A stretch of DNA of 38,612 nt. Source: Chytriomyces cf. hyalinus JEL632 (lineage: Eukaryota; Chytridiomycota; Chytridiomycetes; Chytridiales; Chytriomycetaceae). The notes under the pieces are model-generated. The model was not told the origin of the DNA. It saw only the letters and a list, made by a program, of their open reading frames with translations, and ran no database searches. This document shows positions 4,331-32,080 of this stretch, in pieces; position 1 is the first letter of the stretch; each line of letters opens with the position of its first letter. The DNA lies in the NCBI GenBank assembly GCA_025435555.1, contig JAIWWG010000165.1:1-38612 (forward strand). Reading direction: 5' to 3'. The translations under genes and the position numbers were made by a program.

Positions 4331-4748
4331 TATTCTACTGGGTAAATAAAGAGACGATGGCATGGAAGGAAATGGAAGGAAATGGAAGAAAGTAAATAGA
4401 CACAAAAAGAAGATAAAAAGTGCCGAATCAACACAAAAAAAGAAACGATGGGAGATTTTTACTCAAAAAGCAAAATGATTGTTTAGCCACGTGACAAACA
4501 ATTTTTGTCATAAATTGTTCATGAGCAAAAAAAAGCAATTTTAATGCGCTCCAGCTTTCTCGTTTGTCTGCCCCGACCAAGAACCCAATTTGGAAGAACC
4601 CAAAAAGCCATCCAACCCAAACCCAAACCCAACCAACAACCAACCCAACACCCGATACGCACACCCACCCCCATCGCTACTGACACCCACGCCCAACCAC
4701 ATCCCCTGTCTGCCAATACACCAACGCCAGTCCCACCTCCAACGTCAT
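4331..4748. promoter_or_regulatory. Intergenic and CAACC-rich 5' leader
   Basis: An AATAAA-like signal near 4345 probably ends the methyltransferase transcript. From about 4590 to 4745 the plus strand is almost G-free and rich in CCCAA and CAACC words up to the ATG at 4749. Such an unstructured C/A-rich leader suggests an efficiently translated 5' UTR. A similar leader precedes the zinc-finger gene at 33469. Confidence 0.45.
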
Positions 4749-5459: not shown

Positions 5460-6314
5460 AAAAAACACGATTGATTTTTAGAACAACGGAGGCTATTTTT
5501 TCGTGCATGCAACACCCCCCATTGACACCCCACCCATGTTTTCCTCTCTTGTATATTATATGTTTGAACTCTTTTTCACTTTTTCTCTGGTCTGGCGATT
5601 CTATTTCGCCTTTTTCTCCTTGGTCTTGCGTGTTTTCTGTATCATTTTGTTCATGATTGGGAGGCAAACTCCTCGCGCTCTTTAAAATAAATGATGCATG
5701 CGATAAGAGCATTCAACCATATCACACTTCCCATCACATCCTCGTATAAAGAGTCAGCATATACCTTCGCCCTGCACTTGCGCATGTATGTCGCTACACG
5801 TCAATCGGCAACGTTCGTTTCGGGAATTTCTGAGATATCTGTTCTATGGGAACTCGACTTGCTGCAGTTATAATTGCCGTTGTTTCACGCAGTTGGTCCA
5901 AATCTCCAAGTCTTGTTGTGAGGTGGGCATCGCGCAAAGTTTGTTGGCAACTTTATGTCACCTGTTAATGTTGTTTCAATTTCGCATCCGTGCCGGCTTA
6001 GAACCCAGGCTCCTGACTCCCAGGTTATATTCAGAACATAACCGATCCATTAGGGCCTGATCGTTGCTGTCATTGACATTGGGGGCAAGTGATCGATCCA
6101 CTTCCAGATTCCGACTCTCCAAAGTCACGCTGGGCCTTGCTATGGAGCACTTGCCGCAACAGCAACACAAATGGCGCTGCAGGACGAACCTTCTTCGCCA
6201 TTCCAAAGCACCTTCCACGTTGGTTTTAAATTGGTCTAATTGAGGCCGGCCAATCAGAATCGAGCAACAGAAAAAAGACTCGTTGCCAAAAAGAAGCTAA
6301 ATCACCAACTTTGC
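5460..6314. other. Intergenic region 5' of the SERCA gene
   Basis: No gene seen. It holds the 3' flank of the zinc-finger gene and the promoter of the calcium pump. A CCAAT pentamer lies at 6250-6254, about 60 bp before the pump's ATG. The CCCAGG-containing stretch near 6000-6035 resembles a tRNA T-arm but does not fold as one. Confidence 0.5.
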
Positions 6315-9792
<3,478 letters not shown>

Positions 9793-11181: not shown

Positions 11182-12958
11182 ATGGACGCAAACATTGCCT
11201 TCGCCGACGAGAGTGGCCAGAACACCCTTCAACGCACGCTCCCGCTCCCACTACCGCCTCCTCATCCTCTCCCTCCCCCAAGTCCCCTCAATCCCGCTCG
11301 GTCACTCCCGCAACGAACCCCCGTCTCCCCGAGGCTGAAGTCCAGTTTGCAGTTCCACCATTCGGTTATGCTCGTAGATTCGGAAGATTCAGATGCAGAT
11401 GACCATGCTGACAAAGCCTTGCATATTGAGACCCTTGCCCCAGTCGTCCAACCCACAACCAAACATGAATTAACGGACCAACACCAAGATGTCGATCCCG
11501 TGCAACTAATGCTCGGAACGATCTCTGCCCGCGCTCCGTCTCCTGATGGTTCAGACGCCAGTAGCATCCCCCCATCTAAAGCGTACTTCCGAGCCTCCCA
11601 CCGACTCTCCGCGAGTTTACCGTTTGCAAACCACGAAGCAAGCTCGCGACCGACCTCCTTCTATGGCGTGATACCCAACAAACGCAACTCGGTTGCGTCG
11701 TTTCAGGAATCAAACTATTCGTCCCCCGCACATTCACCGCGCTTCGCTCGCCGCAGTTTCGCAACACCGGCGAATCTTCACACTGTCTCGAGTGCCTCTG
11801 GTCTCCACGTCCCGCACCGTCAACCTTCACTGTCTGTGATGCAAGCTATTCATCAAAAAGTATCCACATCGTCGATGCATATTGGGGAGGCGGTCATTTC
11901 AATACGAGATGGGGTTGGAGAGAGATTTGGGGCGGGATACTCGAACGATTGGACGTTTGGCATCTTTGATAAATGGTGGTCCGTCGAGGAGCGGGAAGTC
12001 CGGTTCATGGAACGCGGTGAGTGATGAAAAAGTTGGCTCTCCCCACTTTGTCTTTCTCTTCATCTAACGCTTTTTACTTTTACTGCTCAAGCTACGACAC
12101 AGCAACCTGCTAAGCAGCCAGAAATGGCGATCCCACAATCTGCGAGTCAACTGTTCGGGGGTGCAGGCAGCACCACCCTGAGCTACAGCCAACACCATAA
12201 TTCCAATCAAAACAAAACATCAACATCATACCCCAGCCATGATTCTATCCCCCATAGTCCAGACTCTTCCGGATCGGGAACTGGAAGTCCTAAGATACAT
12301 CCGCGGGGCCCTAGGCTCCCCCAGTCGGAATCGCACTCAAGTCGAGGAAGCGGAAGCAGCAAGGATAGTAACCCTGTTCAAGCAGCAATCAAGATGCAGC
12401 CTGTTGAGAGCCCAGTGATTACAGTGCCAACAGACAAGATTGTCAACGATAACGCGAAGAAATCTGCGCAGCCGTCGTGCATGCCGTTCTTGAAGGCGCT
12501 GTGCTGTCCATGTCTTATGTTTGGTGAAAACAGGGAATTATTTGTGCGAAATGGAGGTTTCATTGAGCAAGACACAGTTTCCATGTGTTGTGGCGATAGC
12601 ATTCACTCGAGCGAGTTTTCGCGTATAATGAAGGTAGCGATTCTTTATTTCAATCTTTTTGTTTCCTCTTGGATTTTGTGAGTACTAATGGATATGCGTA
12701 CAGTCCGCTCTGTGCTTCACCAGTGCAATGCCTCTATGCCTGTGCTGTATCCCACACCGGGTGTTGCGTAAGTCGATCAAGCAGCGATATGCGCTGCACA
12801 CGCATGGTGAGGAGGAAACGCAAGGCCAATGCGGGGAGTGTATGATCTCCGTGTACTGCTTACCATGCGCGTTGTTGCAAGAGCGTCGAGAGATTGTTCA
12901 CTGGGAGGGTGTTGTCGATGATGCCAGGAAAAGGCGAAGCATGGCAGCGTTCATTTAG
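11182..12958 (+). CDS. PLAC8-domain cysteine-rich protein with long disordered N-terminus
   Basis: Exons 11182-12016, 12092-12633 and 12704-12958 give about 543 aa. The last ~110 residues form a PLAC8 (Cys-rich, cornifelin/FCR) domain. It opens with LKALCCPCLMFGENREL, continues through CLCCIPHRVLRKSIKQRY and ends with CMISVYCLPCALLQERREI. The first ~400 residues are Ser/Pro-rich and probably disordered (a proline tract near residues 25-50, many SP/TP sites), with a DSEDSDADDHAD acidic patch and a more ordered WTFGIFDKWWSVEEREV segment. Fungal and plant PLAC8 proteins are membrane-associated and tied to metal (Cd/Zn) tolerance or cell size; a metal-related role here is inference. The last intron has a GTACTAATG branch site. 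An AATAAA lies near 12984. The start is the first ATG in frame. Confidence 0.8.
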
Positions 12959-13137
12959 GGAGATTTGTACTTGTGGTGGAGGTGAATAAATCGGCATGTC
13001 AAGAGTATCAGTAGTCTCGAAAAGCGCAGTGAAATTATCTTCTTGAGAGTAATGGGGATCTGACCCATTCTTCACAGCGACCGTTTCTTGCAGCAACTGG
13101 TTTGCCAGAAAAAAAAAAAATCATCCAAAAACAAGCC

Positions 13138-14364
13138 ATGACATCGATAGAATCCCTCCTTTCGCCCGTGCGTGCTCATCTGGAAGAGCAGAACAAGATG
13201 ATTCAGAATCTAGAACAGCAACTTGCACGCGCAAAATCTGATCTGGCTGCCGCGACACAGGCGAACAAGTCCGCTGGCCCTTCTAATTTTAGCATCTGGC
13301 CCGATTCAGCCCTCGCAGCATCTTTACCTGCCGACGATATTGGCGATCTTGCGATATCCCATGCATGGACGGGCTTTGAGTGCGTCGGAGGCGTGTTCTA
13401 TAACATGTTCGTTCCTGTTCCAACCCCCCACTGCCAGTCTGTTTGGATCTAACTTGAAAAGTTATGCCAGATTACTCCGCAGAATCATCCCAAACTATGA
13501 TAACATTGACACGGAGTCACGGACAGCTGTAAAAGCAGCCGTATTCACATATCTGAGCCAGAACCTCGAATTTGATCCGAAATACGCATCTCACCTTCAA
13601 AATGCATGGCATGAAACATACATTGTACCCGACCACAAGAGAGCCGCATTCCTAGATTGGGTCTATCCTGAACTTGAACGCTGTTTTCCGGAACTTGTTT
13701 TGCCGTTTTCCAACGATTTGTTTCGTGACTTGGATGCACCAAAATCCACTATTTCCAACGGAACATTGCAAGCGAAGCCACCACACGAAAAGGCTCTGAA
13801 AAATATGCCTGCAGCAACCTTCTCCATGCCCGAAAAACCATTAGCGTCGGAAACACAAGAATCTTTGTCTGGCATTGACATTGACATTGAATTGCCATTC
13901 GCATCACCCGATGTTACGATCGATGGTCCTGTCCGTTATTCATGCCCTTATCCAAACTGCCAATCCAAACCAAAAAACGAATCGGGCCTAAAAACCCACA
14001 TAAACGACAACCACAGAGATCTTGATCTCGTCCTCCCATCTGGCTTTGCAACTGTTCTTGTTCGAAACAAGGACGGGAAGCTGAACTGCATCTGCAACAA
14101 ATTTGAAACCAAGTCGGCCACCAGCTTGAAATTACATATTATCAGCCGCAAATGTTTTCAGGCGTTGGAGGATGGTCATGCTCTGCAACAACAACGGACA
14201 AGTTCGGCTACTTCTAGCCTGAAACGTGCTGGGTCTGAAGATACTGCGAATCAAAAGAAAGCGCCTGGTGACAAAACCTTGATATACTGCCAATAACATT
14301 TCAACCTTCAAAACTGATAAAACTTTTTCTAATTCCAGGGTCCAGCGCCAAGAAGCGCAAATAG
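13138..14364 (+). CDS. Family gene 1: coiled coil - module A - zinc module B - NLS
   Basis: Exons 13138-13379, 13438-14267 and 14339-14364 give 365 aa. Residues 1-40 form a heptad-like coiled coil opening with IESLLSP. Module A spans about 64-165: ADDIGDLAI, then ARLLRRIIPNYDN, a central helix (AVKAAVFTYL) and a terminal YIVPDHKRAAFLDWVYPEL. Module B is about 248-320: a C2H2 finger (C-x4-C...H-x4-H) and then VRNKDGKLNCICNKF...H-x5-C. The last exon adds only SSAKKRK, a likely nuclear localisation signal, so the protein is probably nuclear. Module A matches parts of the genes at 17040, 18567 and, in its ADD-[IL]-GD-[IL]-A start, the third copy of the 18567 gene almost word for word. No known family recognised. 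AATAAA at 14389-14394. Unlike its relatives, module B here has no intron. Confidence 0.8.
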
Positions 14365-14547
14365 AGGATATCGTGGCTTGAAATGAAGAATAAACATTTG
14401 CGCATGATCTTTAAGCATTGTGAAAATCGTAAAATCGAAAGTGCGAATCCCACCCAATTATCAGATGCAAAGAAAGAGCCTGCTGGATTCCGCTCCTGAG
14501 GCCATCAGAGATGTGCTTTGGGACCCCAAGGATTTGATGAAAAAGAG

Positions 14548-14620
14548 TGGAGAACCTGGGCATTGATCCCAGTGCCTCTCGCATGCTAAGCGAGCGCTCT
14601 ACCATTTGAGCTAGATCCCC
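14548..14620 (-). tRNA. tRNA-Ala (anticodon AGC)
   Basis: Read on the minus strand, 73 nt fold as a cloverleaf: 7-bp acceptor (GGGGATC/GTTCTCC, one U-U mismatch and one G-U), D arm GCTC/GAGC, anticodon arm CTCGC/GCGAG with loop TTAGCAT (anticodon AGC), and T arm CTGGG/CCCAG. The discriminator is A. The B box reads GGATCAATGCC, within the GWTCRANNC consensus. The TTC-to-ATC change at the start of the T loop and the acceptor mismatch are unusual. It lies just downstream of family gene 1 on the other strand. Confidence 0.85.
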
Positions 14621-15004
14621 TTGTGTTCCCATCAATTAAATGTACAATATAATTTTACGTAAGAGTTTCTCTCGCGACAAGTTGGAATCTGCTTTTCAAA
14701 AACAGAACCTCATTTGGGTAGCAGCGCCGCCCCATTCCCTAAAGCCTCATTGGTAAGCACAACTTTCTTGTTTTGACAAATGGCGATTGCATTTCAAAAT
14801 GACACTGCATCGGCCGTTGAAGGCACTATGAGAGGTTCATGTTTAACGCGTAACATCAACATCTGTTACACGTTAAACTATCTAATTAAAAACAATTGCG
14901 GAGTGAAGGAGACGGATCTGACCTTTTCTTGTCCATGAAAATCTCTTGTGCAAATCTTGAAAGTTATCAACAACCCAGCCTCCCACACAAAGACGCAGCA
15001 TATC
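14621..15004. other. Intergenic, 5' of the EFHC1-like gene
   Basis: No gene. It holds the 5' flank of the tRNA, a strong imperfect inverted repeat at 14841-14878, and the leader of the EFHC1-like gene. Confidence 0.5.
14841..14878. repeat. Inverted repeat, 15-bp arms
   Basis: Arm GTTTAACGCGTAACA at 14841-14855 and arm TGTTACACGTTAAAC at 14864-14878 pair at 14 of 15 positions around an 8-nt spacer. Located 127 bp before the start codon of the EFHC1-like gene. Could be a protein-binding dyad or a cruciform. Confidence 0.85.
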
Positions 15005-16947
15005 ATGCACACAAAAGCAGCAACAGAACAGCTGTTGAAGACGCTGCCGTTATTGCCGGGGCACTCATTTGGCTTTGCAAAGATGGTTTGTTTTCACTGG
15101 GACCTCAAAGCTGGCTTCTAAACCTTTTATGGTACTTCGACAGAGTATTCCCAACCACAGAAAGTCCCACGCGTTCGACTTTTGTAACAAAGTGTCTGTA
15201 TTTTGCGAAGAGAAACCGGGCATTGGTAATCGTGTGATAGGGTTGCAAATACTTGGAGACTTATCATTCTGCAGGTGGAAACGAACTTTTCGGGCAAGCA
15301 GCGGCGAAAATCGTAACCTCTGTTGATAATTACCCCTACTCCAATGTGCTTGGAGAGAGCGCACCGGCTTGGCTTGCATTCGATAGAAAGGTAAAACCCG
15401 CTGTCGTGATGAAAGTTGGTCAATGATGCCAGGTTTATCCTGATGACCACGGTTTAGGTGCTTCGATTCTACGCCTATTTTCAAGAAGCCGTTCATGAGA
15501 AACGCGAAGAGCAATACAGAGTCAGAAGGTGACATGCGTTCACCCTGATCAATATCTGTGCATGCTCACAATACTTTGCAGGGTCAACATATATTTTTAT
15601 CTAGAAGACGATACCATTCACGTCAGCGAGCCAAAGTATGCCAACAGTGGTATTCCGCAAGGTTGATGCTTTCAATGACCAATGCGTTGTGGTAGCTCTC
15701 CTAACTTTTTTGATTCGGTTGTATTGTGCATGCGCAGGCACTCTTGTCAGACGCAACAGGATTCCAAAAGGAAACGCGCTTAATGGACAGCACTACACCA
15801 TTTCAGATTTAAATGTTGAAAACGAAGTCACGTTTTATTCTCGCACGTTTAAAATTGTTGGCTGCGACCAGTTCACGCGGGTAAGGCCCATCCCGAAGAA
15901 CATCTTTAAAAACTGCCAAACATGGAATTCTTGAATTCATTTCAGGAATTCTTGACCAGTATCCATGTCCCGGTTCCATCCGGTGGGCAATTTCCTGAAG
16001 ACCCATATCAAGTCCAGCGAGCGGAATTGCTCGGTCGCTTGAAGGCAACCCGCCCTTGCGCCCCAAACACTTCACTGAAGAAGTTTCTCGAAAATGACCG
16101 CCGTGTGTTGAGATTTTACTGCATCTGGGACGACACCAACACAGTGTTTGGAGATGTTCGTCATATGGTCGTCCATTACTACCTCTCGGATGACACTGTC
16201 GATATCCACGAGAGCATTCCAGCCAACAGCGGACGTCCCACCAACAGTATGTTCCTTCGCAGATGTCGCTTGCCAAAGAATAAGATTTCTGGGGCCAGCA
16301 ACGTGGGTGCCAAAAATGCAACACCAGAGAGCTTCTTCACGGAGCGTGATTTCACACTGGGCGCCGTGCTTCATTTGAACGGACGTACTTTTGTGATTTG
16401 CGATTGCGATGACTTCACAAAGGAGTACTACCGCGAAAACTACGGCTTGGACTCATTCGATCCGGTGCGCCCGAGCGAGTACGAAGAGCATGTTGCCGAA
16501 GAGCCAAGCGTCAACCAGCTTGCAAAGGCGGCGGGCGTTGGACCGGCCGTGTTCCCTGACACTGGAAGCAGTGAAGAGCGGAAAGGCGGGATCAAGAACA
16601 GCTTCCGAACAAGCTTTGACGGACTTTTTCTCCGGTACTTGGCCGTGCTTCGAACAACAAAACAGGTGGATTCGGACCGTAGATTTGTTATATCGCTGTA
16701 CCTGGCGGACGACTCAGTCTCGGTATTTGAACCGCACCAACGTAACTCTGGCATTCTTGGGGGGAAGTTTCTGGAAAAAAGTAAGATTAAGAAGCCGGAC
16801 GGGCAGTCGTTTTACGGGTCGAGCGACTTTTTCATTGGCGCGCAGCTTACGTTCCACGGACACACGTTCATCATCAACAGCGCGGACGAGTACGCGCTTG
16901 TGTTCATGAGCCAGCATCCGGACGAGTTTCCCAATTTCAGAAAGTAG
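15005..16947 (+). CDS. EFHC1/RIB72-like ciliary protein with three DM10 domains
   Basis: Seven exons (15005-15085, 15144-15225, 15275-15390, 15458-15528, 15582-15661, 15738-15880, 15946-16947) join to 524 aa. EFHC1/RIB72 proteins are microtubule inner proteins that stabilise axonemal doublets. The N-terminus has the family LPLLPGHSF motif. DM10-1 (about 90-195) has VLRFYAYFQEAV, VNIYFYLEDDT, NSGIPQGTLVRR and VGCDQFTR. DM10-2 (about 230-365) has VLRFYCIWDDT, HYYLSDDTVDI and ICDCDDFTKEYY. DM10-3 (about 410-515) has LRYLAVLR, RFVISLYLADDSVSVFEP, NSGILGGKFL and SSDFFIGAQL. It stops after DM10-3, so the C-terminal EF-hand part of the animal protein is missing. The 5' half is intron-rich while the last two DM10 domains share one exon. 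Its poly(A) signal (17023-17028) lies just before the next gene's start. Confidence 0.94.
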
Positions 16948-16958
16948 AAGACACGTTC

Positions 16959-16979
16959 GCCATTATTTATAATAATGGC
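16959..16979. repeat. Perfect short inverted repeat after the EFHC1-like stop
   Basis: Arms GCCATTATT and AATAATGGC surround TAT, 12 bp after the stop codon, in the 92-bp gap before the next gene on the same strand. It could help 3'-end formation or insulate the next promoter; the function is inferred. Confidence 0.8.
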
Positions 16980-17022
16980 ATTATTTATCGTTCATGAAGC
17001 CATGTGTGTTCAAAATGCGATG

Positions 17023-17028
17023 AATAAA
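17023..17028 (+). terminator. AATAAA polyadenylation hexamer
   Basis: The only AATAAA downstream of the EFHC1-like stop (16947). It sits 12 bp before the ATG of the next gene (17040), so 3'-end processing of one gene overlaps initiation of the next. Confidence 0.55.
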
Positions 17029-17039
17029 CATCCAAAAAA

Positions 17040-18356
17040 ATGGATCTTCCCTTCGACGTACTCTTATCCACCCTCGCAGCAAAACACCAAGCGCAGACAG
17101 CGACATGCGAATCACAGCAGAAGACTATCGACAAGCTTACAACCGAAAACGCTAATCTGCTGGCCAAGATCAAGGACCTGACGATGCGCTTGGTGGCGGC
17201 ATCGTTCCAAGTTGCCCTTCTCAAGAGAACCATCAATGCTAGCAGCACCGCATCCTCCTCCTCGGAAGCAGGTATTGCATCTATGTAGTCCTTGGGGATC
17301 GAGCATGGCGGTTCTAAACTTTGCCAAGCTCAACTTCTCAATAGGATCGTCAATGTTGACACTCTTGCGCTTCTGAACCGTGCAATATCTGTTAATGGGG
17401 GCCGCCAGAACGGCGAAGTTCAGCTTCTTGATCGCTTGTTCGAGTCGGATTCCGGCTCTTCTTCCGAGGAACCACAGACATCTTCCAAACGACCCCGAAT
17501 CGCCGAACCCAACACTGTCGCCGATCTATTTGCGGATCGAGTTCAACTAGGGATCCCGAGCGATTCTTTCAACTGCCACATACAAGACTGTGGGGCACTG
17601 CTAGGATCGAAAGCATCTTTGAGCACGCACTTTCACCTGTTCCACGTCAAGGCAAAAGTTACCTTCCAAGGTCGCAGCGAAGTAACAGGTAAATATGGAA
17701 TCGAGTTGTTGAGCAACTTCAGTTGTGATTTTAACTTTTGGTCCTCTTTAGTTATACATCGCGATGCACACGGCGTTCTCAATTGCCCTTGCGGCAAGGC
17801 AGCTTTCAAAAAGGCCGACTGGCTTAGAAATCATGCTGCTACTTGTCCCGGTATCCCGAAAGCTTCTCTGACACCACCGACTCCTGTCCCTTCTGCCGCG
17901 CTCTCTCTGCAACTTCCGCACTTTCATCAACTGTTTTCAAGTAGGGATAACTCCGATTCGAGCGAGAATTTAAATGAGAGCTCGCAGCAGTCCGCCCATT
18001 CACATCTAAATGGCAACACGCATCCAAACGGAGTCCTATATGAAGAGTTTGTATCTGATTGGATCATCGCTTGTGTCACAAGCTTTTTGACAAACCATTT
18101 TTTCTATTTCAGAATTCTCGGAGACATGACTCAGAACTACAGGTCGTCGCCGATCCACGTTCGCAATTCGCTGCGGCAACGTGTGCTAAGCTTTCTGCAG
18201 GAGACGGTCGGCGCACACGTTCACGAGTACAAAGTCGCATTGAACGGCTCAAGCGAGCCGAGCTACCTGATACCCACTCACCTCATTCAAGAGTTTATGA
18301 AATGGATTGCGCCTGATTTACAACTGCACTTTCCGAACGGCAGAGTAACATGTTAA
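17040..18356 (+). CDS. Family gene 2: coiled coil - zinc module B - module A
   Basis: Exons 17040-17271, 17329-17688, 17752-18046 and 18113-18356 give about 376 aa. The N-terminus (FDVLLSTLAAK, then a Leu/Lys heptad stretch to about residue 60) is a coiled coil. A basic SSKRPRIAEP patch could be a nuclear signal. Module B (about 158-240) is a C2H2 finger (CHIQDC...H-x4-H), then VIHRDAHGVLNCPCG and H-x4-C; a phase-1 intron splits the Val codon of VIHRD. A Ser/Asn/His-rich linker follows. Module A (about 291-372) starts GVLYEEILGDM, has a central LRQRVLSFLQ helix and ends YLIPTHLIQEFMKWIAPDL. Compared with gene 1 the module order is reversed. The first intron is ambiguous: the chosen acceptor (after TTCTAAACTTTGCCAAG) has the best branch site; another intron at 17285-17344 also keeps frame. 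No known family recognised. Confidence 0.8.
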
Positions 18357-18566
18357 AAAGTAAAAGGAAAAGTGACGTCATTGTTTTTGTGAGCTGCTGC
18401 ACTTAAAATGTTAACGTGCGGTGCCAGTCATTGAAAGACAACGTCGCGCCGTCTTCTCAACGTGAATACCATCCAACTTGCTTCATTCTTTTGTATAAAT
18501 CTTAACCAACCAAAAAACAAGAATAAGACGAGCATCACACGTGAACACACATTCCCTTTCGAGGCA

Positions 18567-21500
18567 CTACGCATAATCAGCCATCTCAGGTATCTTCTGA
18601 ATGCTTCGCTCCGGAAACACTCGCACAAGCTCTTCATAGATCCACTCACAAAATTCAGGTACATAAGCCGTGGGAACCAAATACGTCACTTGGTCTTCCT
18701 TTCCGGGTATTCCAGGACTCAAATGTACTTCGCATGCCTTCAAAGTGCTACCCATTTCAGGCATGGCTTCCAGAAGGAAATCTTTCACCGCCATTTTCAC
18801 AGCGTGGCGCAGTTCTGACGCAATTTGATCAAAATCCATCATTTTTCGCAGCAGTCTAACGTCCACAATGCCATTGACGCGAAAAATCGTGCAGTATGTT
18901 AGATGATCCAAACAACAATTAACAAATCACTGCAATTAAATGGCAAAACTTACACGTTGTATAAAACACCGTCATTCTGCTGATATGATTCGACTGGTTG
19001 ATTCAAAGCAATATCTCCTAAATCATCGGCGACAGGAGAAGTACTGTCGTTTGAATTCCTGCGAGGATCAAGTATGTCTTGCTTCGCATCCCCGTTCGTT
19101 CGCACTTCCATGGTTGAAGTCTCGGAGACTGTGGCGGACGTGGGCGAGTCGATTCTGTCGCGATCTCGCTTCAAGGAGGACACAAACGAATCCCTATTCC
19201 CTAGCTCCTTGCCCTTTGCTTTCATGGCACCTGCAGGCATCAGCACAATTTCCTCATCATCAAACAAAGACTTCATCGCGTCATGCATATCGTGATCCTC
19301 ATTGATACCGGTTGTCTGCAAGATGCCATTATCTTTCTGATTTGCCAGTCCTTCAACTGGATTTACAGGTTTTGCCGACTGTACAGACGCATCTTTCAAG
19401 TTTCCACGTCCATCCACCACTCCTTTCGCTTGACTGTCAGAATCTGAACCAGCAGCCTGTTTTGCTGCGGGTTGATCAACAAGCGCGGGTTTCGATGCAA
19501 GCGCGCTTGCTTGTAAAGCTCGCGGAGAGCCAAGCTTGGAAGTTGAGGTTGGAAGTGCGAACGATGCGGATGCAACTGTGGATGCGACGCCAGAGGGGGT
19601 TGTTGCGGATTTTGGGTTCAGGCTGATTGTGGGGTTGGAAGAAATGACTGCTGCCAGCTGCAGAGATGCTGGCTGAGAAGCAACGATTGGAGTTGAGACG
19701 TTTGGTTCAAGGATTGGAGATTCCTCTGTTGGGGCAGAAGCACTTTTCTTTTCGGCAGCTTTGGACAGAGTTGCTGACAGAGTGGATGAATTCGATGTCA
19801 AAGCGATATTAGGAGTCGAGACCGACAGTGACTGTCCCTTTTGCATCGAAGGAGTGGACATGGATGAGCCCAAAGCGATAGTCGGCGCAGCCGTAAAGGG
19901 AGACGCGGTTTTCGATGAATCGGATGTGGCCCCTGTTGCAACAGAAATCGGAAGAGGAGAGGATCTAGAAGATGCTGGATGACCCGGCAAGATTGCTGGA
20001 AGCGCGGAATTCTGACTTTTTGGTGTGACAGACTTGAAGGGAGATATGGAAAGTTTGGGGACAGTTGGCATTGTCGCAGGCACAGTTGAGGAGAAGGCTA
20101 AAGGTTCGGGATTTTGTTCTACAGGCGCCACAATGTCACGCACGACTGTCATGGGGCGTTCAAATGTGGCTTCAACAGCACTAGCAACCTTATCCACATT
20201 CATCTTTGAAGCTTCATTGAGATCCATCTCACCAGCAATAGCTTCGGAATTGAGGTTGCTGAACAACGATTCCGAGGAAATGTTGCCGTCACTTTCCTTG
20301 GAACGGATCGAAACTGACGCAGGTGGGAAAGACTGCCTGTTGCTAGAATTATCTTCCACACGCTGGCGCTTTACACCACGTTCCGAAATTTCTTGAGTGA
20401 TGGGTGCTGTAATTGATCCTGCAGGGTAATATGGAAACTAGTTTACAAATAACAACCAAAAAAGATTCGAGCAAGCAAGAAAGCGTCATACGGACCAGCA
20501 GTTCCCAGCATTGCGGCCGCAACCGCCTCCTGAAGAGCACTTTGAGCAGCAGTAACACTTTCCGAAGAACCCACTCGCGGAAAAGTGTGTTCACCAGGAC
20601 GAGATGGCCGAGTCATTTCTTCAACAAAATCCGCGATAAATCGCTCTGGAATACCAACTACTACATGTCCTTGTTGGAACTGGCACGAAACTCGGATATT
20701 TTGTAGGCCGGTGCGTTTTCGAAAGTTGTGTAAACGCGCTTGGAGCTTCGATGCGGAGGTATCGAAGTTGGGATATAACGGACGAGCCACTGCAAGAATG
20801 TCTGTCCATGCATAGCAACGGTCAATATTTTTGGACCCATCAGGTAGATTGGCTACTGGTTCCATGGGCATGAATCGCCCATTTGATTGAGTTGTGGGTT
20901 GCGGTAAAACTGATTTTTGCTGAGCAACTGGTTTGACGGGAATAGCACTTGACGATGCGCCAGTTTGATAGGACTGCTTTGCGGGTAGAGGGGGCAAACC
21001 GAGATGCTTAATAAACTGCGGGATGAGGGAATGCGGGATAGCTGTCACATTTGATTTGATTCTGCTGTATAGTGGAGGCTGCTCACGTTTGATTACATGC
21101 ATGGCCGCGAATTGCGCTACTTTTGATGAAAGAAGCCTCTCGACATCTGGTCTCTCCTCGAAGTTGTGGACATGGTGTAAAACAATGTCTCGCCAAGCAA
21201 TTGCCTGTTCATTCGCAACGGGCTGAGTGGATTGCGTGCCGACAACCAGAGGTTGAGCTGATCCAGCCGTGCCATTAGGAATAGGTTGACTCGGCACAGA
21301 AACGTTTTGAGCAGATTGAGGAGGGCCTGAGACCAAACTCAGCATCTCAGCATGTCTCCGCTCCAGATCAGCAACTTTCTCCTTGGTAATCACAAGTGTT
21401 TGAACTTGAGCGTGCAGGGCCTTGTTCTCGTTCATTGCCAAAACCAACTTCTCGCGTAGCGTTTTGTTCTCGAGTCGCTGCTGCATAAACAACGTCTGGA

Positions 21501-21609
21501 TGCCCTCCAAGTGCGCCCTCATTGACAATGGCTGAGACGGCAGCTGCGACTGCGGATGAGGCTGCGACGGTAATGCCAAGTTGTTGGCGCTGCTGTTGGT
21601 CTGTGCCAT
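18567..21609 (-). CDS. Family gene 3: coiled coil with three copies of module A
   Basis: Minus-strand exons 21609-20496, 20418-18954 and 18855-18567 give about 955 aa. Residues 30-95 form a long coiled coil. Module A copy 1 is about 138-205 (AWRDIVLHHV...IPHSLIPQFIKHLG). Copy 2 is about 266-333 (YAWTDILAVARPLYPNFD...VVGIPERFIADFVEEM). About 500 residues of Ser/Thr/Pro/Ala-rich low complexity follow, with acidic (FDDEEIVLM) and basic (KRDRDR) patches. Copy 3 (about 835-942) is closest to gene 1: ADDLGDIAL, GVLYNVLLRKMM, and after the last intron YLVPTAYVPEFCEWIYEEL. No zinc fingers. Copies 1 and 2 are the most diverged. The first donor (GTCCGT) was chosen because only phase 1 fits; a donor at about 20455 is an alternative. 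It is divergent from gene 4 and convergent with gene 2. Function unknown; probably a nuclear scaffold (inference). Confidence 0.8.
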
Positions 21610-22090
21610 GCCTTTCTGGACTTCTTTTTGATGTGCCTTTTTATTCAAATTTTATCGTCGGATGACTTCGGACGTCAAGAACGAAGTTGGTGCACAATGA
21701 GTTAAATGTATGAATAGACAAGTTCTACTGATTCTCCAGAACTCATCTGCAGTTGAGAGATATCCTCTCAGCCCTTTCTTGCTCATCCGTCGTATGTATT
21801 GCTTGGTGCTGGGACACTAATCCCCTGAAACTCCTCGCCCAATTCACTGAAGTATCGAGCTTGACAATCATTGGACATGTATTCTTGGACAGTGCTGCGT
21901 GTGCAAGCTGTTGGGGCACGCATCTATTTTCGTGACGCAATGGGATCCCTGTGATTCTGCCCAAGCAAAGTTTGGCTGTGGAAATGCAAAAAATGGGTCA
22001 AGTCGAATCTGATTGGCTGTTTCATCGTTGAAGAAAATCAAAGGAAAAAAAAAAAAAAAAAAAAAAAAAAGGCCCAAATTTCCAACCAAC
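21610..22090. promoter_or_regulatory. Divergent promoter region between family genes 3 and 4
   Basis: 481 bp separate the two start codons. No gene inside. A run of 26 A (22045-22070) ends 20 bp before gene 4's ATG; poly(dA:dT) of this length commonly excludes nucleosomes in fungal promoters. Both genes could share this control region. Confidence 0.5.
22045..22070. repeat. Homopolymer A tract (26 nt)
   Basis: Uninterrupted A run directly upstream of the start codon at 22091. Confidence 0.95.
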
Positions 22091-23685
22091 ATGGAGCTGC
22101 TTCTATCGGTCCTCTCTGAGGAACTTTCAGCTTTCACACGGAAGCCATCGCACTCTTCCCTTGAAGACAACACCGGGGTCAAGCAGCGGATCCGTTCCCT
22201 CCAGCAGAAAATGAGTCTCAAGCGAAGGGCCTCCCTCGATTCAATATCGTATTTGCAAGATGCCACTGACTGTGAGGATAACGGCGATGACCTTGTCGAA
22301 CACTGCAAAGCGCCGTTTTTCGCTGTTGATGATGCTTTAAGTGTTGTGTCTCGCTCTGCCGGATTGGACTCCGCGCAGTTTGGCGTGGATCTTCTTCGCA
22401 TGTTCAAGTGCCCTGCCGAGGGCTGCTCATCTTCTTTCGCATCGCAAGACGTGTATCTAGACCACAAAGGCAAGCGCCATGATGATGCCACGGTTTTATT
22501 CATGAATGCAACCCGGACAAGAGGTGTGTGTTTTATATCTTCAACCTTTTTTTTTTTTCCAACGATTTTTTGAAGTTCACTTTTTTTTGGGTCCAATTTT
22601 TTATTGCTCACATTTCTCATTCAATTTCTAGTCATCGCAAGAGATGCAAACGGCCTCCTCAATTGTCCCTGTGGTCACCGAGGATTCACTTACCTGAATG
22701 GAATGCTCAAACATGCGAAAAACTGCGCCGGCGAAACCCCTGTTGTTGCAGTCGATCCAACAATTGCTCCAGTAAAAGCGTTCAAATGCTCGTTCGAAGG
22801 ATGTACAAAAAGCTACGGATCCAAGACCGGGCTGTCACTGCATTTAAAAAGCAAACATCTGAATAGCCAAAGTGACTCACCAAGGTCGTCTGCAGCTGGA
22901 CGATCTGCAGCTGATGAAAGCAAGGCAGAGCGTATGGATACCCCAGAAGCCTTGGGAGAGGCTGCGTTGCAATTGGAACAATCACCAACATCCCCTTTCA
23001 GAACACTGAAGGCTGAGGAAAACGGCCGATCCACGCCGTCAACCCCTGCACTTACCTTTAAATGTCCATCAGATCACTGCACTCAGGCGTTCGCATCAAA
23101 AAAGGGCCTTGCCCTCCACAAGAGCAAAACACACGGTGATGCTATCGTAACCTTTTTAGATTCAACAGAAAGCACAGGTCAGCTTTTTCCTAATTGCGAA
23201 GCTAATTTGTTGTTTCATGTGGACAAAAGTCTGACTGTCTGTTCATTGCAGTCATTCGGCGAAAAAACGATGTTCTTTCATGTCTATGCACTGAATTCGT
23301 GACAAATTCAAACCAAGAGATGGCTCGGCATGTATTACAATGCACTGGATCCCCAAAGTGCGCAGCAATCCTGCTAGAAGCTGCCGCCATATATTTGAGC
23401 AAAAATTCTTCAACTACGCCCTTACACTCTGAGCATGCAGAGCGAGGCGTTTCGCCGGCAGCTACTTTGATTCAGTCGACTGATACACCGTCTTTTTCGG
23501 CCGATGATGAAACGTCCTTATCGCCTCAAAGACTGCCAAAGATGGACTCTGAGCGAGAAGATGGCGAAGTACCGTTTCTGGTGGGTAATTTCGCGGATGT
23601 GCGGGAAGGAGAGAATGTATTATCAGGGAAGGAAATTGGTGTGGATTTGGAACCGGCGAGAAAAAAGGCCCGCCTCGCAATATGA
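22091..23685 (+). CDS. Family gene 4: tandem zinc modules (B - C2H2 - B)
   Basis: Exons 22091-22523, 22632-23177 and 23252-23685 give 470 aa. The N-terminus opens MELLLSVLSEEL with a short helical segment. Module B copy 1 (about 105-180) is a C2H2 finger (FKCPAEGC...H-x4-H) followed by VIARDANGLLNCPCG and H-x4-C. A plain C2H2 finger (FKCSFEGC, about 194-220) comes next, then an acidic Ser/Pro linker. Module B copy 2 (about 288-390) is FKCPSDHC...H-x3-H and VIRRKNDVLSCLC...H-x4-C. A phase-1 intron interrupts the same Val codon in both copies, so finger and intron were duplicated together. The tail is acidic and ends ARKKARLAI, a possible basic nuclear signal. Probably a DNA-binding nuclear protein (inference from the C2H2 fingers). 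The start is the first in-frame ATG. No module A present. Confidence 0.84.
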
Positions 23686-24000
23686 ACAAGCAATAATAAT
23701 AAAAAAGATAGCCCAAGTTCATCACCCGTTATCGTAGAGTTAGTGGGGCAAGGTGGTGTGAACGATGGTGTGGCAAAATCTCGTTGAACAAGCTGATTTC
23801 TTTGCCGTTCATGCAATCATCCACCGGAGGGCCCCTGACGGAGACTTTGCTCTAATCGCTCATCTTAACTCGGGCTACGATATTATGGAGCAGAAACTGC
23901 CGTTATCATTATCTGGGCTGCGCTCAATAGCAATTGTTATGGTTGGACGTTTGGGGCGAGACGTGTATATCACGCGTTTATTCGCTCAATAAGCAAAAAT
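23686..24000. other. Convergent 3' region
   Basis: Lies between family gene 4 and the acid phosphatase. A minus-strand AATAAA (23978-23983) about 20 nt past the phosphatase stop is its likely poly(A) signal. A 75-codon plus-strand frame from 23765 has no recognisable motif and overlaps this signal. Confidence 0.45.
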
Positions 24001-25330
24001 TTATTCAGAATTTGAGAATGCGGCGCAATCTGGATGAAGCTGGAAGGGGGCAGCGCTTGCATCATTATACCCCAAGTTTCCCAACGAAAAGATTTGTTCA
24101 ATCGTTGCAAGCAACGAGTAATGGTTATATCGAGTGCCATCCACGCTTCCTGGATGTGGAATACCCTTTCCGAGCAGTAAAGTGTCTAAAAACAAGCAAG
24201 GGTTTGAGAACGCGGCGCACAGGATACAATGAAATAAAATAAACTAAGAAGAATAAAGTTACAGATATGGTTTCCAAAGTAAGTCCGTGACTCATCGTAA
24301 GTTATAACAAAGAGGGTCTACAAGTTCCAGGGCAGTAGCGGGGGAAAATCCAGCAAAATAAGTCGTACTAACGTGAGTTTTTCAATTGCAAACGACTCAA
24401 AAACACACCGATGCAAACGACGGATGCGCAAGTTTCGGCTCCAAAAACTCTTTCAACCACTGACTCGCAAACTGCACAGACGTGTCATGGCCGTCATGGT
24501 TCATGTCTGGCGTGTAAAACATGAACGTGGGTAATGCCCCTCGTTCTGCATCCGTTTCCAACTCGTCGCTGTTAACGATTCGCGCGCATCGAGTTGCGTT
24601 GTTTCGAATGTTGTTGAAACTAATGAACGGGTTGTGTTTACGCGCGTAAGTTTCGTATCTGTCGCCGGTGAAGCATCCGCCCGGGTACGACTCTTGGTAC
24701 GACTTCCAAGATAGGTTTCGAGCCTCGAGAAGGTCTACCATTGTTTGCTGCGTTGAAAAGTGGTGTTCGTTCAGCTGGAGGAAGCATCCCGCCGTCCGTT
24801 TACTCACCCCCTCGATATCGATGTTCGTGTCAAAGAAGCAATTATGCGTAGACCCTGAGATCATACCAATGTAATTCGGCTGTCAAGGAGTGTATGTTTC
24901 ATGTTTACACGATCCCATGCCGCTTTCGTATCGCAAGAATCGAGCAGAAAACAAAACATACCTGCGACGGATGCCGTAAGCCGTGGTAGTTGCTGAGCAA
25001 AGATCCTTTTGATGTCAGTTCCTTTCCAAAGTACTCATCGTTGAGAACGTCGTTCGCGTTGGCGTTTTCAAAGTCGATGACGAATACGTTTTCGATGCTG
25101 TTTTTGTTGGAGGGTGTCCGTTTTACAACTGTTGCTTGCAAGTCGAAGGCCTTCTCGGGCGTAAGATTGGGTTTACCCGCATGAGTTTGAGGCAGTGGTG
25201 ATTGGATGCTGGTGTCTTCAACAAAACCGATCAGACAACTTTAACATGCGCATGCCCATTCATACCTTCTTGGGGTTGCCAGTGCAATGACTGAAAGCAA
25301 GAGGACCATGATAAGGTGGTGTCCAGTCAT
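24001..25330 (-). CDS. Secreted acid phosphatase, phosphoesterase family (PF04185-like)
   Basis: Minus-strand exons 25330-25266, 25208-24962, 24879-24409, 24317-24263 and 24185-24001 give about 340 aa. An N-terminal signal peptide (MTGHHLIMVLLLSVIALATP) points to secretion. The family blocks appear in order: NVFVIDFENANAND, NYHGLRHPSQPNYIGMISGS, WKSYQESYPGGCFTG, YARKHNPFISF, TFMFYTPDMNHDGHD, VITYDESRTYFGNH and HYSLLATIE. This matches fungal secreted acid phosphatases that release phosphate from organic esters; Asp/His/Asn residues in the FEN, PDMxxDGHD and TYDE blocks are the expected metal and active-site positions. The third exon reads on to a stop at 24397; splicing at 24409 restores the conserved C-terminal third. 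It is transcribed from just below the fungalysin gene (126 bp gap), so the two may be co-regulated by phosphate or protein supply. Confidence 0.9.
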
Positions 25331-25455
25331 GTTCAGTTGCGTTTAAAATATTTCGAAAGACTCAAATTTATTTGACAGGCCCAAACTCAACACACGCACG
25401 CAGACATCATACAACATTGCAAAATCCCCATCATCCATCATCACGTCGCTTCAAA

Positions 25456-28219
25456 TCATAGACACTCCTTGGGCAGTTTAAATGAATCAAAACCTCCACT
25501 AATTGCACCAACCCCAAGTCCTCTCTTTGCAAAACCTTTCCAGATCAAACACTTGTTCTTTCCTCCCGTCAACAGGTCTTCAGCAGTGATAATTGCATCA
25601 CGAGCATCGACAAAGCTTGGACTGCAAGGCTGCAGCTTCAGTCCATCTACAACCAACTGCAGAATCAAGACGTTGCCTCCAAGTGGGTATGGGTCATCGG
25701 ACTTTGGCAGCGAATTCTTTGTCGCATTTGGCCATGAGACACTCTTGCGAGTGCGAGTCCGGCCAGTGCTGAATTCCTGGTATGTGTTGCTGCGGGACTG
25801 CTGCAACAAAGCATCACCAGCGTGGCTGAGAGGCGAATCGAACCAGTCTGCATTGAATCCGTGGGTATCGACAAAGTTCCAGTAGACTTCATACAGAATC
25901 TCGGCCCAAACTTCGCCCTTTGCGTGGACACCCCAGTATGCAGGCTTTTGAACAAACGAGTAAACAGATGGGTTTGTTTCATTGTTGGTTGAGTACTGTT
26001 GATGACGCATATTAGTTACCATGCCGAGAATAAGGAAGAAAAAAAAAGCCCACCTTGAATCGACGGATTCCTTTCCCGCCGTTTGCATAGTCACCCATTC
26101 CAAATTCAATATCCCTTGATGCATCATTCGGCATTCTCAAAGCAGTTGCAAAGAAATCGCCCCATCCTTCGCCCATTCCTCCAGATTCACCAAATCCAAG
26201 GCATCCACTGTTTGCTGGGCCGCCCGTCAACCGCGTGCTGATACCATGAGCGTATTCGTGCATAATGATGCCTCCTTCAAAATCTCCATCGCGCCAAGGT
26301 GTAGTCACGTCCCATACATACATGCGCATTCTTCCATGAGATCCATCGGCTATGAAAAAAAGGAATGGGTTCAGTATGGCTTTACGGAGGAATCAGCGAA
26401 ACGGAACTTACGTGGAGTCGCAAAATTGGCATTGTTGTGTCCGCTTCCGTCTTGCGCGTTCGCAATAACACTGTCTCCGCCCAACCCACCACGACCAAGA
26501 TTTGAGTCTTGGAAGTTTCCTGAAACTTCATCGAATCCATAAACGTAAAACAGATCTGAAGAGTGGCATGTTCTTTAGTTTTAAGCAGGTTCCATTTTGC
26601 GAGTACTTACCATGAACCGCATTGTTCCAATAAAACAGATTGATAACAGCTGCGTCAACGTATGTCTCTGGATCCTGAGTCAAGTCAACAGGAGTGTCAA
26701 AAATAAGCTTTGCAGTTCCGTCAGGTCGTGACTTGTTTTCCCAGCCGTTATAAGAACCGTCTGATTCAGGCATTCATCAGTGATTTGCAGTGGGGAATTA
26801 ATGAAAGCAGACAATATGTACCAAGGTTTTCTTGAGCAAATACGTTGTTTCCAACAGTGACAGTGTAGTTTCCGTGCGGACACTGCTTTTTGTTCCCGCT
26901 GCACCAGTGCCAGCCATTTGGACTGGCGACCAGACTCAAGGGTCCCTTGACGAGATTTCTGTCGCCTGTTTAATTTCAAAGTCAGCTTTCAATTTCAGGG
27001 AGGTAAAGATGAAGCAGTTTTTACCTTCCAGCGGATCATTTGTGCCTAAAGGGTACACATTGTACACTCCATGAATTGAAGAGCCTTCGTCTTTGTCGTC
27101 AGAGACTGCATCGTCCATCACGAATGCAGCTTGTTTTTCATGATGGTGATGCTTGACCTTTTGCTTTTGATAAAGCTCCACCTTGTCTCCCTTCTTGCCC
27201 TTCTTGAACTTGCCATGAAGCTTCTGTTTTGCGTCTTTGCCGCGATAGGACACCCGTTCCACGATGCGCTCATAAACAATTTCACCCTCGTCATCGTCTT
27301 TGGGAGCCTCAGCATCAAAGTAATTTTCGCTGACCCAATCAACAAGAGACAAGGTGCGCTTGTGTTTAAAGGTTTTATCGGCGCGCGCGTCCACGTGGGC
27401 GTTGTAGTAGTTGTTGCCCAAGTCCACTTCAAAGTCCCAAACAGGCACCAGTTCGTTGGAATCTGTTCGAAGATATTTCAAAGTCGCTGGAACAGCAATG
27501 GGGCCTGAAGGTGGCGCGGAGGGACCAAATGCAGACATTATGGCCGATGAGGGAAGGGTAATTTCAAAGTCTGGGGTTCGACGGAAAGGCCTTTGACCAG
27601 GCAGAGCTTCTGCAGGAGGGAAGGCCCTTTTTCCCAGCGAACCTTGCGGGTGTTTTGACACTGCAGCTCCGGCGCTGCTTGGCGCTGCAAATCCCAGCTC
27701 GTCGAAAAACGCGTCGAGGGCCGGAAGCGGATCCAACAAATTACTCGCTTGATGCCTTCGCATAAGCTCAAAGTCAGTCTCTTTGCCCGAGTAAAAGTCT
27801 GAGGTAAATGAATGAATGGCCGATGAACTGGTCCGGACATTTGCGTTGGCAACGGCATTGACAATTTCAACGCCATCAAGTGTCTGCACAAGATGAACAT
27901 GCGTCAGATCCAAATGTGGAGAATGAACTGTCCCGGTGACCGCGACTGAAAAGCCCTGTTTTCATTTCAAAAAACTCGTCAGTTCTTCTGTCATGGACAC
28001 ACTATTTCATTCCAAAAGAGCCCAAACCTTGTGCGCGGCATACGCCACGGCCACATCCGGCAGACCCAGAGGTGAAGCTGATGCGCTCTGTGCTTGGAAT
28101 GCGGCAATGTCAGCGGGTGTCTCGGTGGTGTGTCTTGCTGCGGGACCGAAGCGTCGTTGTTTAGTGTTTGCGCAGTCTGCAGCGAGGACGAGAGCGGCCA
28201 GGATGCAGAGAAGACGCAT
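25456..28219 (-). CDS. Fungalysin, secreted M36 zinc metalloprotease
   Basis: Minus-strand exons 28219-28028, 27955-27025, 26965-26822, 26760-26611, 26555-26412, 26349-26054 and 25995-25456 give about 798 aa. A signal peptide ([17 protein letters not shown]) leads into an FTP/propeptide region ([20 protein letters not shown]). The catalytic domain has [30 protein letters not shown], the zinc-binding HEYAH (residues 551-555) with [10 protein letters not shown], and [12 protein letters not shown] supplying the third zinc ligand, Glu581. All catalytic residues are intact. At about 800 aa it is longer than typical fungalysins (600-650 aa): the propeptide contains a Ser/Ala/Pro-rich segment and a Lys/His-rich insert with HHHH. 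Fungalysins degrade extracellular proteins such as keratin and collagen and are expanded in some chytrids. It is divergent from the peptide transporter at 29586. Confidence 0.95.
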
Positions 28220-28230
28220 ATTTTGGTGTT

Positions 28231-29441: not shown

Positions 29442-29541
29442 AATCAAAACGCAGCACTTGAAAATTACGCACACTTTAAAATTTGCAATTGATCAAACAC
29501 CGTGCATTAATCCCTGAAAAAGTGGCAGCCACCCGTGCGGG

Positions 29542-29549
29542 TATAAATA
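29542..29549 (+). promoter_or_regulatory. TATA box of the OPT gene
   Basis: TATAAATA preceded by GGG, 44 bp before the ATG. Transcription starting about 30 bp downstream would leave a leader of roughly 15 nt. Confidence 0.65.
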
Positions 29550-29585
29550 CGCTCCCTCTCCCTAAATGGGTGGTCATCAGGAAAA

Positions 29586-32080
29586 ATGGCAGACTATGAG
29601 GCCAAGGCCACCGACACTGAGTTCATCTCGGACGAAAAGGTTCAAACAGTCACTGAACAGGACGACGACTACATTGACGAAATCTATGAGATCATGTTTG
29701 TAACATCACTGCTTTCCGTCAATCCCTATGTTCTGACGTCTGATTTTCTTCCTCTAGTGATGCCGTTGTCCCACGCACAGACGACCCAACTATCCCTGCC
29801 AACACTTTCCGTGCCTGGTTTCTCGGTCTCGTCTTTGGAGTGTTGATCTGTGCCGCCAACACCATTTTCACCTTCCGATCCAACTCTTTCTCCATCACTC
29901 CCTTCGTCACGGTTCTGCTTGCCTACCCATGCGGTCTCATCATGGCCAAAGTACTTCCTGCTGGGATTTTGAATCCGGGGAAATTTAACTACAAGGAACA
30001 CGCCCTGATCTATGTCATGACTTCCTGCATGGCTTCCCCACCTTACGCGCTGTACAACATTGTCGGACAAAAGTACCAGCTGTACCAAACCGACTTGTCT
30101 TTGATCAGCGGTTTCGGATTCGCTATTGTTACTCAGTGCTTTGGTTACGGATTTGCCGGTGAGCGACTGAGAACAAATTTTATGTACCAAATCCGTCAAC
30201 TAACTTGTTATCACTGTTTTGTTTCAGGTCTTACTCGTCGTTACTTGGTTCGTCCAGCTGCCATGCTCTGGCCTTCCAACTTGGCCACCATTGCCATGTT
30301 AAACTCCCTTCACGGAACTGATGATGGTCAGGGAACCAGATACCCAATGACGCGTTTCAAGTTCTTCTGGCTCGTCTCGTCCGCCATGTTCTTCTACCAG
30401 TTGCTGCCAAGTTACGTTATGCCCATGATTGGAGCTCTGTCCGTCATTTGCTGGTTCACCAACAACAAGAAGGACAACAAAATGGCTCTTGTTCTTGGAA
30501 GTGGTTCCTACGGAGGTGGTGTGGGTCTTTTGTCCTTCACCCTCGACTGGTCCCTCTGCAATGTTTACTCTCCCATCACCACTCCTCTGTGGGCCATGAT
30601 GAACCAGTTCTTGGGTCTCTGGTTGTTCATGTGGATCGTTACCCCAATCTTGTGGTACACTGAGGCTTTCTACAAGGATCAGTCTATCGGTGCTAGCTCT
30701 GAGTACGGCTTCACCATCAACAGCCCTGCCACTTACAACAAGGACGGAAACCGTATTCCAAACACCAAGTTTGTCATTCGTAGCCCCGATGACCGCAACT
30801 CTCTGGTTCTCAACCAAACCTTCTACGATGAGAACAAACCCATCCTGATTACCACCTACTTTGCTTTGGAATACGCCAACTCCTTCATTGTGTTTGTTGC
30901 CGCTCTTGTTCACGTTGGCCTTTGGTACGGAAAGGATATCTGGCACCGTTTCCGCGCTACATTGCAGGACTTGGACCGTAACGACATTCACGCTACTTTG
31001 ATGGACGCTTACCCAGAAGTTCCCGACTGGTGGTTTATCGTTGTTCTTGCTGTGACTACCGTCCTTGGAATTGTTGTTTGCCAGTGGGGAGGTTTCGACT
31101 TGCCATGGTGGGGCACCATCTTGGCCATGTTGCTCGCTTTGGTTTCTATTATCCCCATCGGTACCATTCAAGCTATTTCTGGACAGCAGATTGGTTTGAA
31201 CGTCATGTCCGAGTTCTTGATTGGACTTTTGCTCCCTGGTCGTATCTCTGCTGTCATGGCCTTCAAGACCTTCTCCTACATGGCCATGTACCAGGGTCTC
31301 TTCCTTGTTGCTGACATGAAGCTCGGACACTACCTGAAGGTTCCCCCTAGAGCCATGTTCTTGGCCCAGTTGGTGTCCACCGTTTTGGGATCCTGTGTTT
31401 CGACTGGTACTGCTGCTCTGATCTACGAGTCTTTCGGTAAGATTGAGAAGCCAGTATCCCCACAGTTCCCCGCCGGATTCCAGTGGTTGATGCAAGTTCA
31501 GGGAGACGACCCCGCCTCTGGATGGTCTTCCAACGGATACAATACGTTCTTGTCTGCCGGTGCTATTTGGGGAGCCATTGCCCCAGCTCGTTTCTTTGGA
31601 CCCGAATCCCCCTACTTTAAGACTTTGCTCGGATTCCTCGTTGGAGGCATTCTGCCAATCATCCCATGGTACCTGCACAAACTGCAACCAAACTCCTTCT
31701 GGCACTTGGTCAACATCCCCCTCATCTTCATCTTCCCCGCCGCCGCTGGTGCACGTCGTTCCGACTTGATCACCCCTCTCGCCATTTCCGTCCTCGTCAA
31801 CTACTTTGTCAAAAAGTACAGAAACACTTGGTGGAAAAAGTACGCATACGTCATGTCTGCCGCCTTTGACTCTGGAACTGGAGTCATGCTGCTGATTCTG
31901 TTCTTTATGGTGCAGTTTAATCCAAAGTACCAGATGCCGTTCCCAGCTTGGTTCATGAACTCTGGAGACGTTGAGCGGTGTTTGCCGGATGCTGCGTTGA
32001 CTTGCATGGAGCATGCGACGATGGGTGGTGCGTATGGAAATGAGTACTTGCCAGAGCAGGATCCAGCGTGCAATGCTTAG
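29586..32080 (+). CDS. OPT-family oligopeptide transporter
   Basis: Exons 29586-29695, 29758-30158 and 30228-32080 give 787 aa, the usual OPT length. OPT carriers import tetra- and pentapeptides, glutathione or metal chelates across the plasma membrane with protons. Family marks: acidic cytosolic N-terminus; first helix region FRAWFLGLVFGVLICAANTI; NPGKFNYKEHALIYVM; ASPPYALYNIVGQ; GFGFAGLTRRYLVRP (spliced); GGGVGLLSFTLDW; GTIQAISGQQIGLNV; and the C-terminal VNYFVKKYRNTWWKKYAYVMSAAFDSGTG segment; about 14 hydrophobic helices in all. Codon use (GGT/GGA, AAC, CTC/TTG, ATC) is more biased than in neighbours, suggesting high expression, as does the TATA box. The second intron (69 nt) is a multiple of three with no stop. 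It is divergent from fungalysin, so its substrates may be that enzyme's products. Confidence 0.97.

Follow-up and report, generated by a model that had tools for sequence, protein, structure and literature searches.

Do four neighbouring genes on one contig of Chytriomyces cf. hyalinus JEL632 (Chytridiales, Chytriomycetaceae) belong to a single family assembled from shared modules, and what might such proteins do? The window analyzed here is the whole contig of 38,612 bases (named C74), one of 242 in an assembly of 37.8 Mb. An earlier note on this DNA had proposed that the four genes, called G1 to G4 here, share two pieces, module A and a zinc module B. That proposal was borne out by profiles built without the window copies and by shared intron positions, and the homology of the window modules A and B is real.

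Shared modules in four neighbouring genes

To avoid circularity, window copies were kept out of the profiles, which were then run against all 1151 window frames of at least 20 residues. The A profile was made from 18 of 22 copies, excluding those in the window and the copy of G3 on C166, a contig that carries a second version of the locus; the B profile was made from four B copies, all from that second locus. A held-out profile was also made for A′, a diverged subtype of A (hhalign probability of 69% and expectation value [E] of 4.4e-5 against A). The top three matches of the A profile were the three A copies of the window (E of 1.7e-19 to 1.1e-12), and the next match had an E of ~1. The top five frames of the B profile all lay in G1, G2, and G4 (E of 2.3e-14 to 0.0014), followed at an E of 0.024 by an ordinary C2H2 gene at 5.2 kb. 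For A′ in G3, the whole frame was matched with an E of 6.4e-14. The intron inside A is in phase 2 after GV[FL]Y[NE] and falls at the same codon in all three genes that carry A (G1, G2, and G3), while that inside B is in phase 1 before V-I in three of the four full B copies (that of G2 and both of G4) and is missing from G1.

All four genes are multi-exon, with GT-AG introns of 57 to 108 bases and no internal stop (Table 1). The G1 splice model is identical, residue for residue, to NCBI protein BJ741DRAFT_715588; G2, G3, and G4 are splice models of this analysis alone, and the first intron of G2 has three acceptable forms, all of which keep the frame open. The window architectures are A-B, B-A, A′-A′-A, and B-b-B (b, half B). 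Thus, the module orders first put forward stand for G1 and G2, whereas G3 is not A-A-A and G4 has a half module between its two full B copies. A further suggestion, that all four genes begin with a common leucine-rich or coiled-coil module, was borne out only in part. In a crude test, the heptad score was equalled by 2 of 500 shuffles for G1, 35 for G3, 43 for G2, and 185 for G4; a common N-terminal part was detected in G3 and in X2, a gene of the C166 locus (8.5e-7).

A candidate family of nuclear zinc-finger regulators

The zinc-ligand pattern of B is constant, C-x2/4-C-x12-H-x4-H followed by C-x-C...H...C. The finger ligands are present in all eight aligned B copies, the first copy of X1 (also at the C166 locus) being irregular in its second half. 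The C2H2 spacing C-x2/4-C-x12-H-x3/5-H is kept in the aligned B modules of G1, G2, G4, and X4, and X1b has C-x2-C. The basic nuclear-type motifs reported earlier were also found: K[KR]x[KR] occurs in eight of the nine proteins tested (G1 to G4, X1, P0005, P0006, and P0010), compared with ~3.4 expected from shuffles. Together with the zinc fingers and the coiled coils of several members, this excess suggests that the proteins bind DNA in the nucleus.

Module A had been described as unassignable to any known family, and our searches agree. Pfam gave no match to A in 22 members scanned (best E of 0.051, in one), and no solved chain matched the A models at an E of ≤0.001; nor did any viral structure match a second AlphaFold2 model of A at that threshold. 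A sequence-profile search of solved structures gave best E values of 0.45 for A and 0.34 for A′. The KRAB, SCAN, ZAD, and BTB models of Pfam were unmatched by 22 A and 14 A′ rows (one X2 copy being present twice among the latter). For the whole family proteins scanned, Pfam and NCBIfam returned coiled-coil or finger matches only, none above the curated cut-off. A precomputed tag on P0006 and P0007, PF26082.1, was not reproduced in a Pfam scan at an E of ≤0.5. AlphaFold2 predicted a strand-helix-helix-hairpin-helix fold for A with confidence (predicted local distance difference test [pLDDT] scores of 82 to 97; 78.0 for the A exon alone). The earlier note had named strong matches of A to a described domain, or unrelated predicted folds among the copies, as outcomes that would speak against it. 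Neither was seen for A; A′ was folded only at low confidence (pLDDT block means of 35 to 69). A may be a new accessory domain.

We favor, with somewhat better than even confidence, the reading that G1 to G4 belong to a Chytriomyces family of probably nuclear zinc-finger regulators with interchangeable parts, in which A would bind a partner. It draws on the held-out profiles, the intron positions, the B ligands, the basic motifs, the predicted fold of A, the C-terminal location of A in most members, and the constraint on G3 and G4 described below. In such proteins, an N-terminal coiled coil would pair many members, B or BED-like fingers would bind DNA, and A would serve as a partner-binding or dimerizing domain through which a fixed effector is recruited to the bound DNA, a role akin to that of KRAB, SCAN, or ZAD in animal zinc-finger families. 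If fingers were reshuffled around a constant A, targets would change while the effector stayed the same, and the turnover between the two locus copies would be in keeping with this. That A is the constant partner-binding part is the best reading of its C-terminal position (in G2, G3, X1, X2, X4, P0006 to P0009, and P0011; not in G1), its core-type conservation, and the analogy with the animal families.

The same features of A bear on a different proposal, namely, that A itself binds nucleic acid and that A, A′, B, and the BED-like fingers are alternative readers strung in series, with G3 binding through its three A-type copies. This proposal is viable because helix 2 of A has several K/R residues in many copies (e.g., RKAVKRGVR) and because neither G3 nor its C166 counterpart has a finger beside its A-type modules. 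However, most of the nearly invariant positions of A are hydrophobic (V24, L28, Y50, P53, F60, W63, L68, and F72, with R17 as the exception), which is a core pattern, and neither Pfam nor the solved structures yielded a match to a DNA-binding family; the Foldseek row for the Mbp1 DNA-binding domain had an E of 7.7 and a probability of 0.02. We regard nucleic acid binding by A as unlikely, though worth keeping in view.

Several observations weigh against our preferred reading of a partner-binding A in nuclear regulators. In the coiled-coil test, G4 does not pass and G2 and G3 are marginal. G3 has no finger, and P0008 lacks K[KR]x[KR]. The Pfam cut-off for zf-C2H2 was missed (20.4 bits for G4, versus 25.2), as was that for zf-BED by P0008 (11.8 bits versus 20.6), and the single B modules of G1 and G4 lie below the Pfam finger cut-off. 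Finally, identity among four G1 orthologues is 71 to 84% in the coil, 73 to 81% in A, and 69 to 77% in B, so conservation singles out no module.

Family size, distribution, and a second copy of the locus

The family is not confined to four members at one place, as had been supposed. The A copies number at least 24 and are spread over eight contigs. C166 has ten, C219 four, C74 three, C8 and C241 two each, and C191, C194, and C197 one each, the last in pieces; a further C166 match, partial and of 14.4 bits, was not counted. Two queries gave 21 and 23 A matches in the JEL632 genome, and 18 B and 19 A′ matches were counted with exon pieces included. The module counts are lower bounds, being based on the window and 35 of 85 loci, and the genome-wide profiles by construction contain many of the copies counted. 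The densest region is ~120 kb of C166, with ten A copies. Architectures at the C166 locus are B-B-b-A (X1), B-A′-A′-A (X2), and A′-B-B-A (X4); other members have a coiled coil followed by BED-BED-A′-A (coil and BED by eye). BED-like CxxC...H...C fingers occur in members on C8, C241, C219, and C166. As annotated, P0005 has a truncated A and P0010 has none. Among the scanned stretches, B-like finger repeats without A were seen at C168:317.4-319.3 kb, C179:4.5-5.0 kb, and C24:298.0-298.6 kb; these are possible B-only paralogues.

Three orthologues of G1 were found in C. hyalinus (70 to 76% identity), so that three further genomes of this species retain the gene. The BED-A′-A type was represented by two JEL632 proteins, four from C. 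hyalinus, and one from Chytriomyces sp. MP71 among the best 7995 candidates by shared words that were scored. Protein searches gave no homologues outside Chytriomyces; these searches depend on exact matches of short words and could overlook distant relatives. Viral contigs scanned with P0008 gave no relative, and no title among the papers listed on C. hyalinus, chytrid zinc-finger families, Chytriomyces mating type, and diploid chytrids concerns this family. As far as these sequence searches reach, the family is apparently restricted to Chytriomyces. This and the varied module orders agree with the lineage-specific expansion and shuffling suggested earlier. Local duplication was also part of that suggestion; a recent one is unsupported because the window A copies are deeply diverged and the A tree is weak. 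Only 2 of its 20 inner branches are well supported and long branches were flagged; with deep branches this weak, the order of duplication cannot be read.

A second, diverged copy of much of the window lies at C166:763-818 kb. Window positions 12061 to 28230 correspond to C166 789-809 kb, positions 6250 to 9100 are 87% identical to their C166 copy, and positions 33190 to 38120 are inverted relative to C166:813-818 kb; C166 ~818-828 kb lies outside the cover of C74 and C219. G3 and G4 are common to both copies, as is the EFHC1-type neighbour (92% amino acid identity). Of G1, the C166 locus has only 35 bases surrounding the start and, possibly, a piece of 22 bases; the window in turn lacks X1, X2, and X4. 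The A tree groups X1 with G1 as sisters (90/88), and X1 may therefore be a rearranged counterpart of G1. When C74 and C219 are combined, 5 of the 10 A genes of C166 have partners (G3 and four with C219, the pair C166:829/C219:166 having weak tree support, 87/46) and 5 have none; conversely, 2 of the 7 A genes on the C74/C219 side (G1 and G2) are without a C166 partner. The locus copies thus differ by gain or loss of many A genes.

Synonymous divergence (dS; Nei-Gojobori method, in-house script) is similar across the block, at 0.65 to 0.87 between C74 and C166. The ratio of nonsynonymous to synonymous divergence (dN/dS) against the C166 copies is ~0.06 for the EFHC1-type gene and 0.16 to 0.26 for G4; for G3, it is 0.18 in A, 0.35 in the first part, and 0.47 in the linker. 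Both G3 and G4 are therefore under constraint, yet they evolve faster than their EFHC1-type neighbour. These values also bear on whether the genes have no host role and merely derive from mobile elements, as remnants or passengers. Transposases often carry BED-like and C2H2 fingers, the copies are dispersed over eight contigs with many presence/absence differences, and the window contains repeats. Against this stand the dN/dS values of G3 and G4 (0.16 to 0.47), the intact multi-exon frames, the retention of G1 in the other C. hyalinus genomes, and the absence of a transposase or other catalytic Pfam domain from the proteins scanned. A mobile origin of this kind seems to us quite improbable.

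Where did the two copies come from? Candidate origins are alleles, the two sets of a hybrid or their remnants, and an old segmental duplication. Parts of the assembly exist in two strongly diverged copies, with 68 to 92% DNA identity where measured. MCM matches fall on eight contigs, the number expected for single MCM2 to MCM9 genes, and a C166 point at 500 kb has no second copy; whole-genome doubling as the cause of the second locus is thus unsupported, although partial doubling is real. One further explanation is a recognition or compatibility locus of mating-type kind, in which two haplotypes that diverged long ago and carry different sets of these genes stand side by side. The dS of 0.65 to 0.87 over the C74/C166 block with its many unshared A genes, six C219/C166 stretch pairs at 68 to 85%, and the lack of any sign of doubling from the MCM genes and the C166 point all agree with it, but doubling is also seen elsewhere, with less divergence (C8/C241 at 86 to 92%, C194/C197 at 83%, and the 20-kb point of C219 against C162 at 92%), and we consider it very unlikely. 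Similarly slight is the chance we give to a broader conjecture, that A is a new small domain of unsolved fold, born in or near Chytriomyces, and that the locus is a shuffling ground in an anciently diverged haplotype pair, possibly serving recognition or mating compatibility.

Two genes of other kinds interrupt the set, as first described: a tRNA-Ala, called by ARAGORN, and an EFHC1-like gene, in which Pfam DM10 matched two stretches within 16168 to 16944 (4e-52; 174.9 bits versus a cut-off of 23). Elsewhere in the window, a separate gene at ~4593-5460 (plus strand) ends in two ordinary C2H2 fingers outside the B family. A large membrane-protein gene at 29510-32080, oligopeptide transporter-like by eye, has many relatives on other contigs (71 to 91% DNA identity), several of them in tandem on C1. 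A 300-base dispersed repeat at 723-1022 has at least 32 more near-full copies on other contigs (40 of 158 candidates scored); their 95 to 97% identity indicates a recently active element.

Table 1. Family genes, their modules, and intervening genes in the window
Feature	Positions	Strand	Details
G1 (A-B)	13138-13406, 13471-14267, 14339-14364	+	3 exons, 363 amino acids, tail KKRK
Module A of G1	13472-13693	+	Held-out profile E 1.7e-19; second exon, first residues in exon 1
Module B of G1	13937-14158	+	Intronless; held-out profile E 1.7e-13 at 13940-14155
tRNA-Ala (AGC)	14547-14620	-	ARAGORN; between family genes
EFHC1-type DM10 gene, last open frame	15910-16947	+	Between G1 and G2; upstream exons outside model
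G2 (B-A)	17040-17271, 17329-17688, 17752-18046, 18113-18356	+	4 exons, 376 amino acids
Module B of G2	17568-17861	+	Intron-split; held-out profile, frame E 1.6e-13
Module A of G2	18114-18338	+	Held-out profile E 1.1e-12
G3 (A′-A′-A)	21609-20496, 20418-18954, 18855-18567	-	3 exons, 955 amino acids
Module A of G3	18609-18851	-	Held-out profile E 1e-17
Second A′ of G3	20605-20832	-	Held-out profile E 2.9e-8
First A′ of G3	20995-21213	-	Held-out profile E 9.3e-4
G4 (B, half B, B)	22091-22523, 22632-23177, 23252-23685	+	3 exons, 470 amino acids, tail ARKKARLAI
First B of G4	22400-22738	+	Intron-split; profile match
Half B of G4 (C2H2 finger only)	22781-22864	+	18.4 bits; held-out E 0.012
Second full B of G4	23054-23358	+	Intron-split; profile match

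Comparison with known systems

If the proposed role is correct, this early-branching fungus would offer a place to ask what drives such families (transposons, development, or self-recognition), and module A, being small and predicted with confidence, would suit structural work and screens for partners. With both diverged locus copies in one assembly, gene gain and loss can be compared directly. Among the closest known systems we name the Tfb5 (TFIIH), Taf14 extra-terminal, and TAF4 RST domains. BED-finger proteins resemble the members on C8, C241, C219, and C166 in their CxxC...H...C fingers and differ in that P0008 reaches only its subthreshold zf-BED score and has no transposase domain. A further likeness is to the animal KRAB, SCAN, ZAD, and FiNZ clusters, where, as proposed here, zinc fingers are joined to a constant accessory domain. 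The SCAN family combines its accessory domain with clustering, turnover, and lineage restriction. For KRAB, FiNZ, and ZAD families, passages of one published account describe an accessory domain with fingers, clustering, copy turnover, and lineage restriction (PMC10547256). Many clustered paralogues with turnover in one lineage are likewise what we found in Chytriomyces. In contrast to those animal families, the Chytriomyces proteins have few, irregular fingers rather than long C2H2 arrays, their module A is unmatched by the animal accessory domains in Pfam, so that membership in any of those families is unsupported, and their finger types (B and BED-like) interchange. They represent an apparently lineage-restricted, module-shuffling zinc-finger family outside animals, in a fungus, with an accessory domain to which no Pfam model corresponds.

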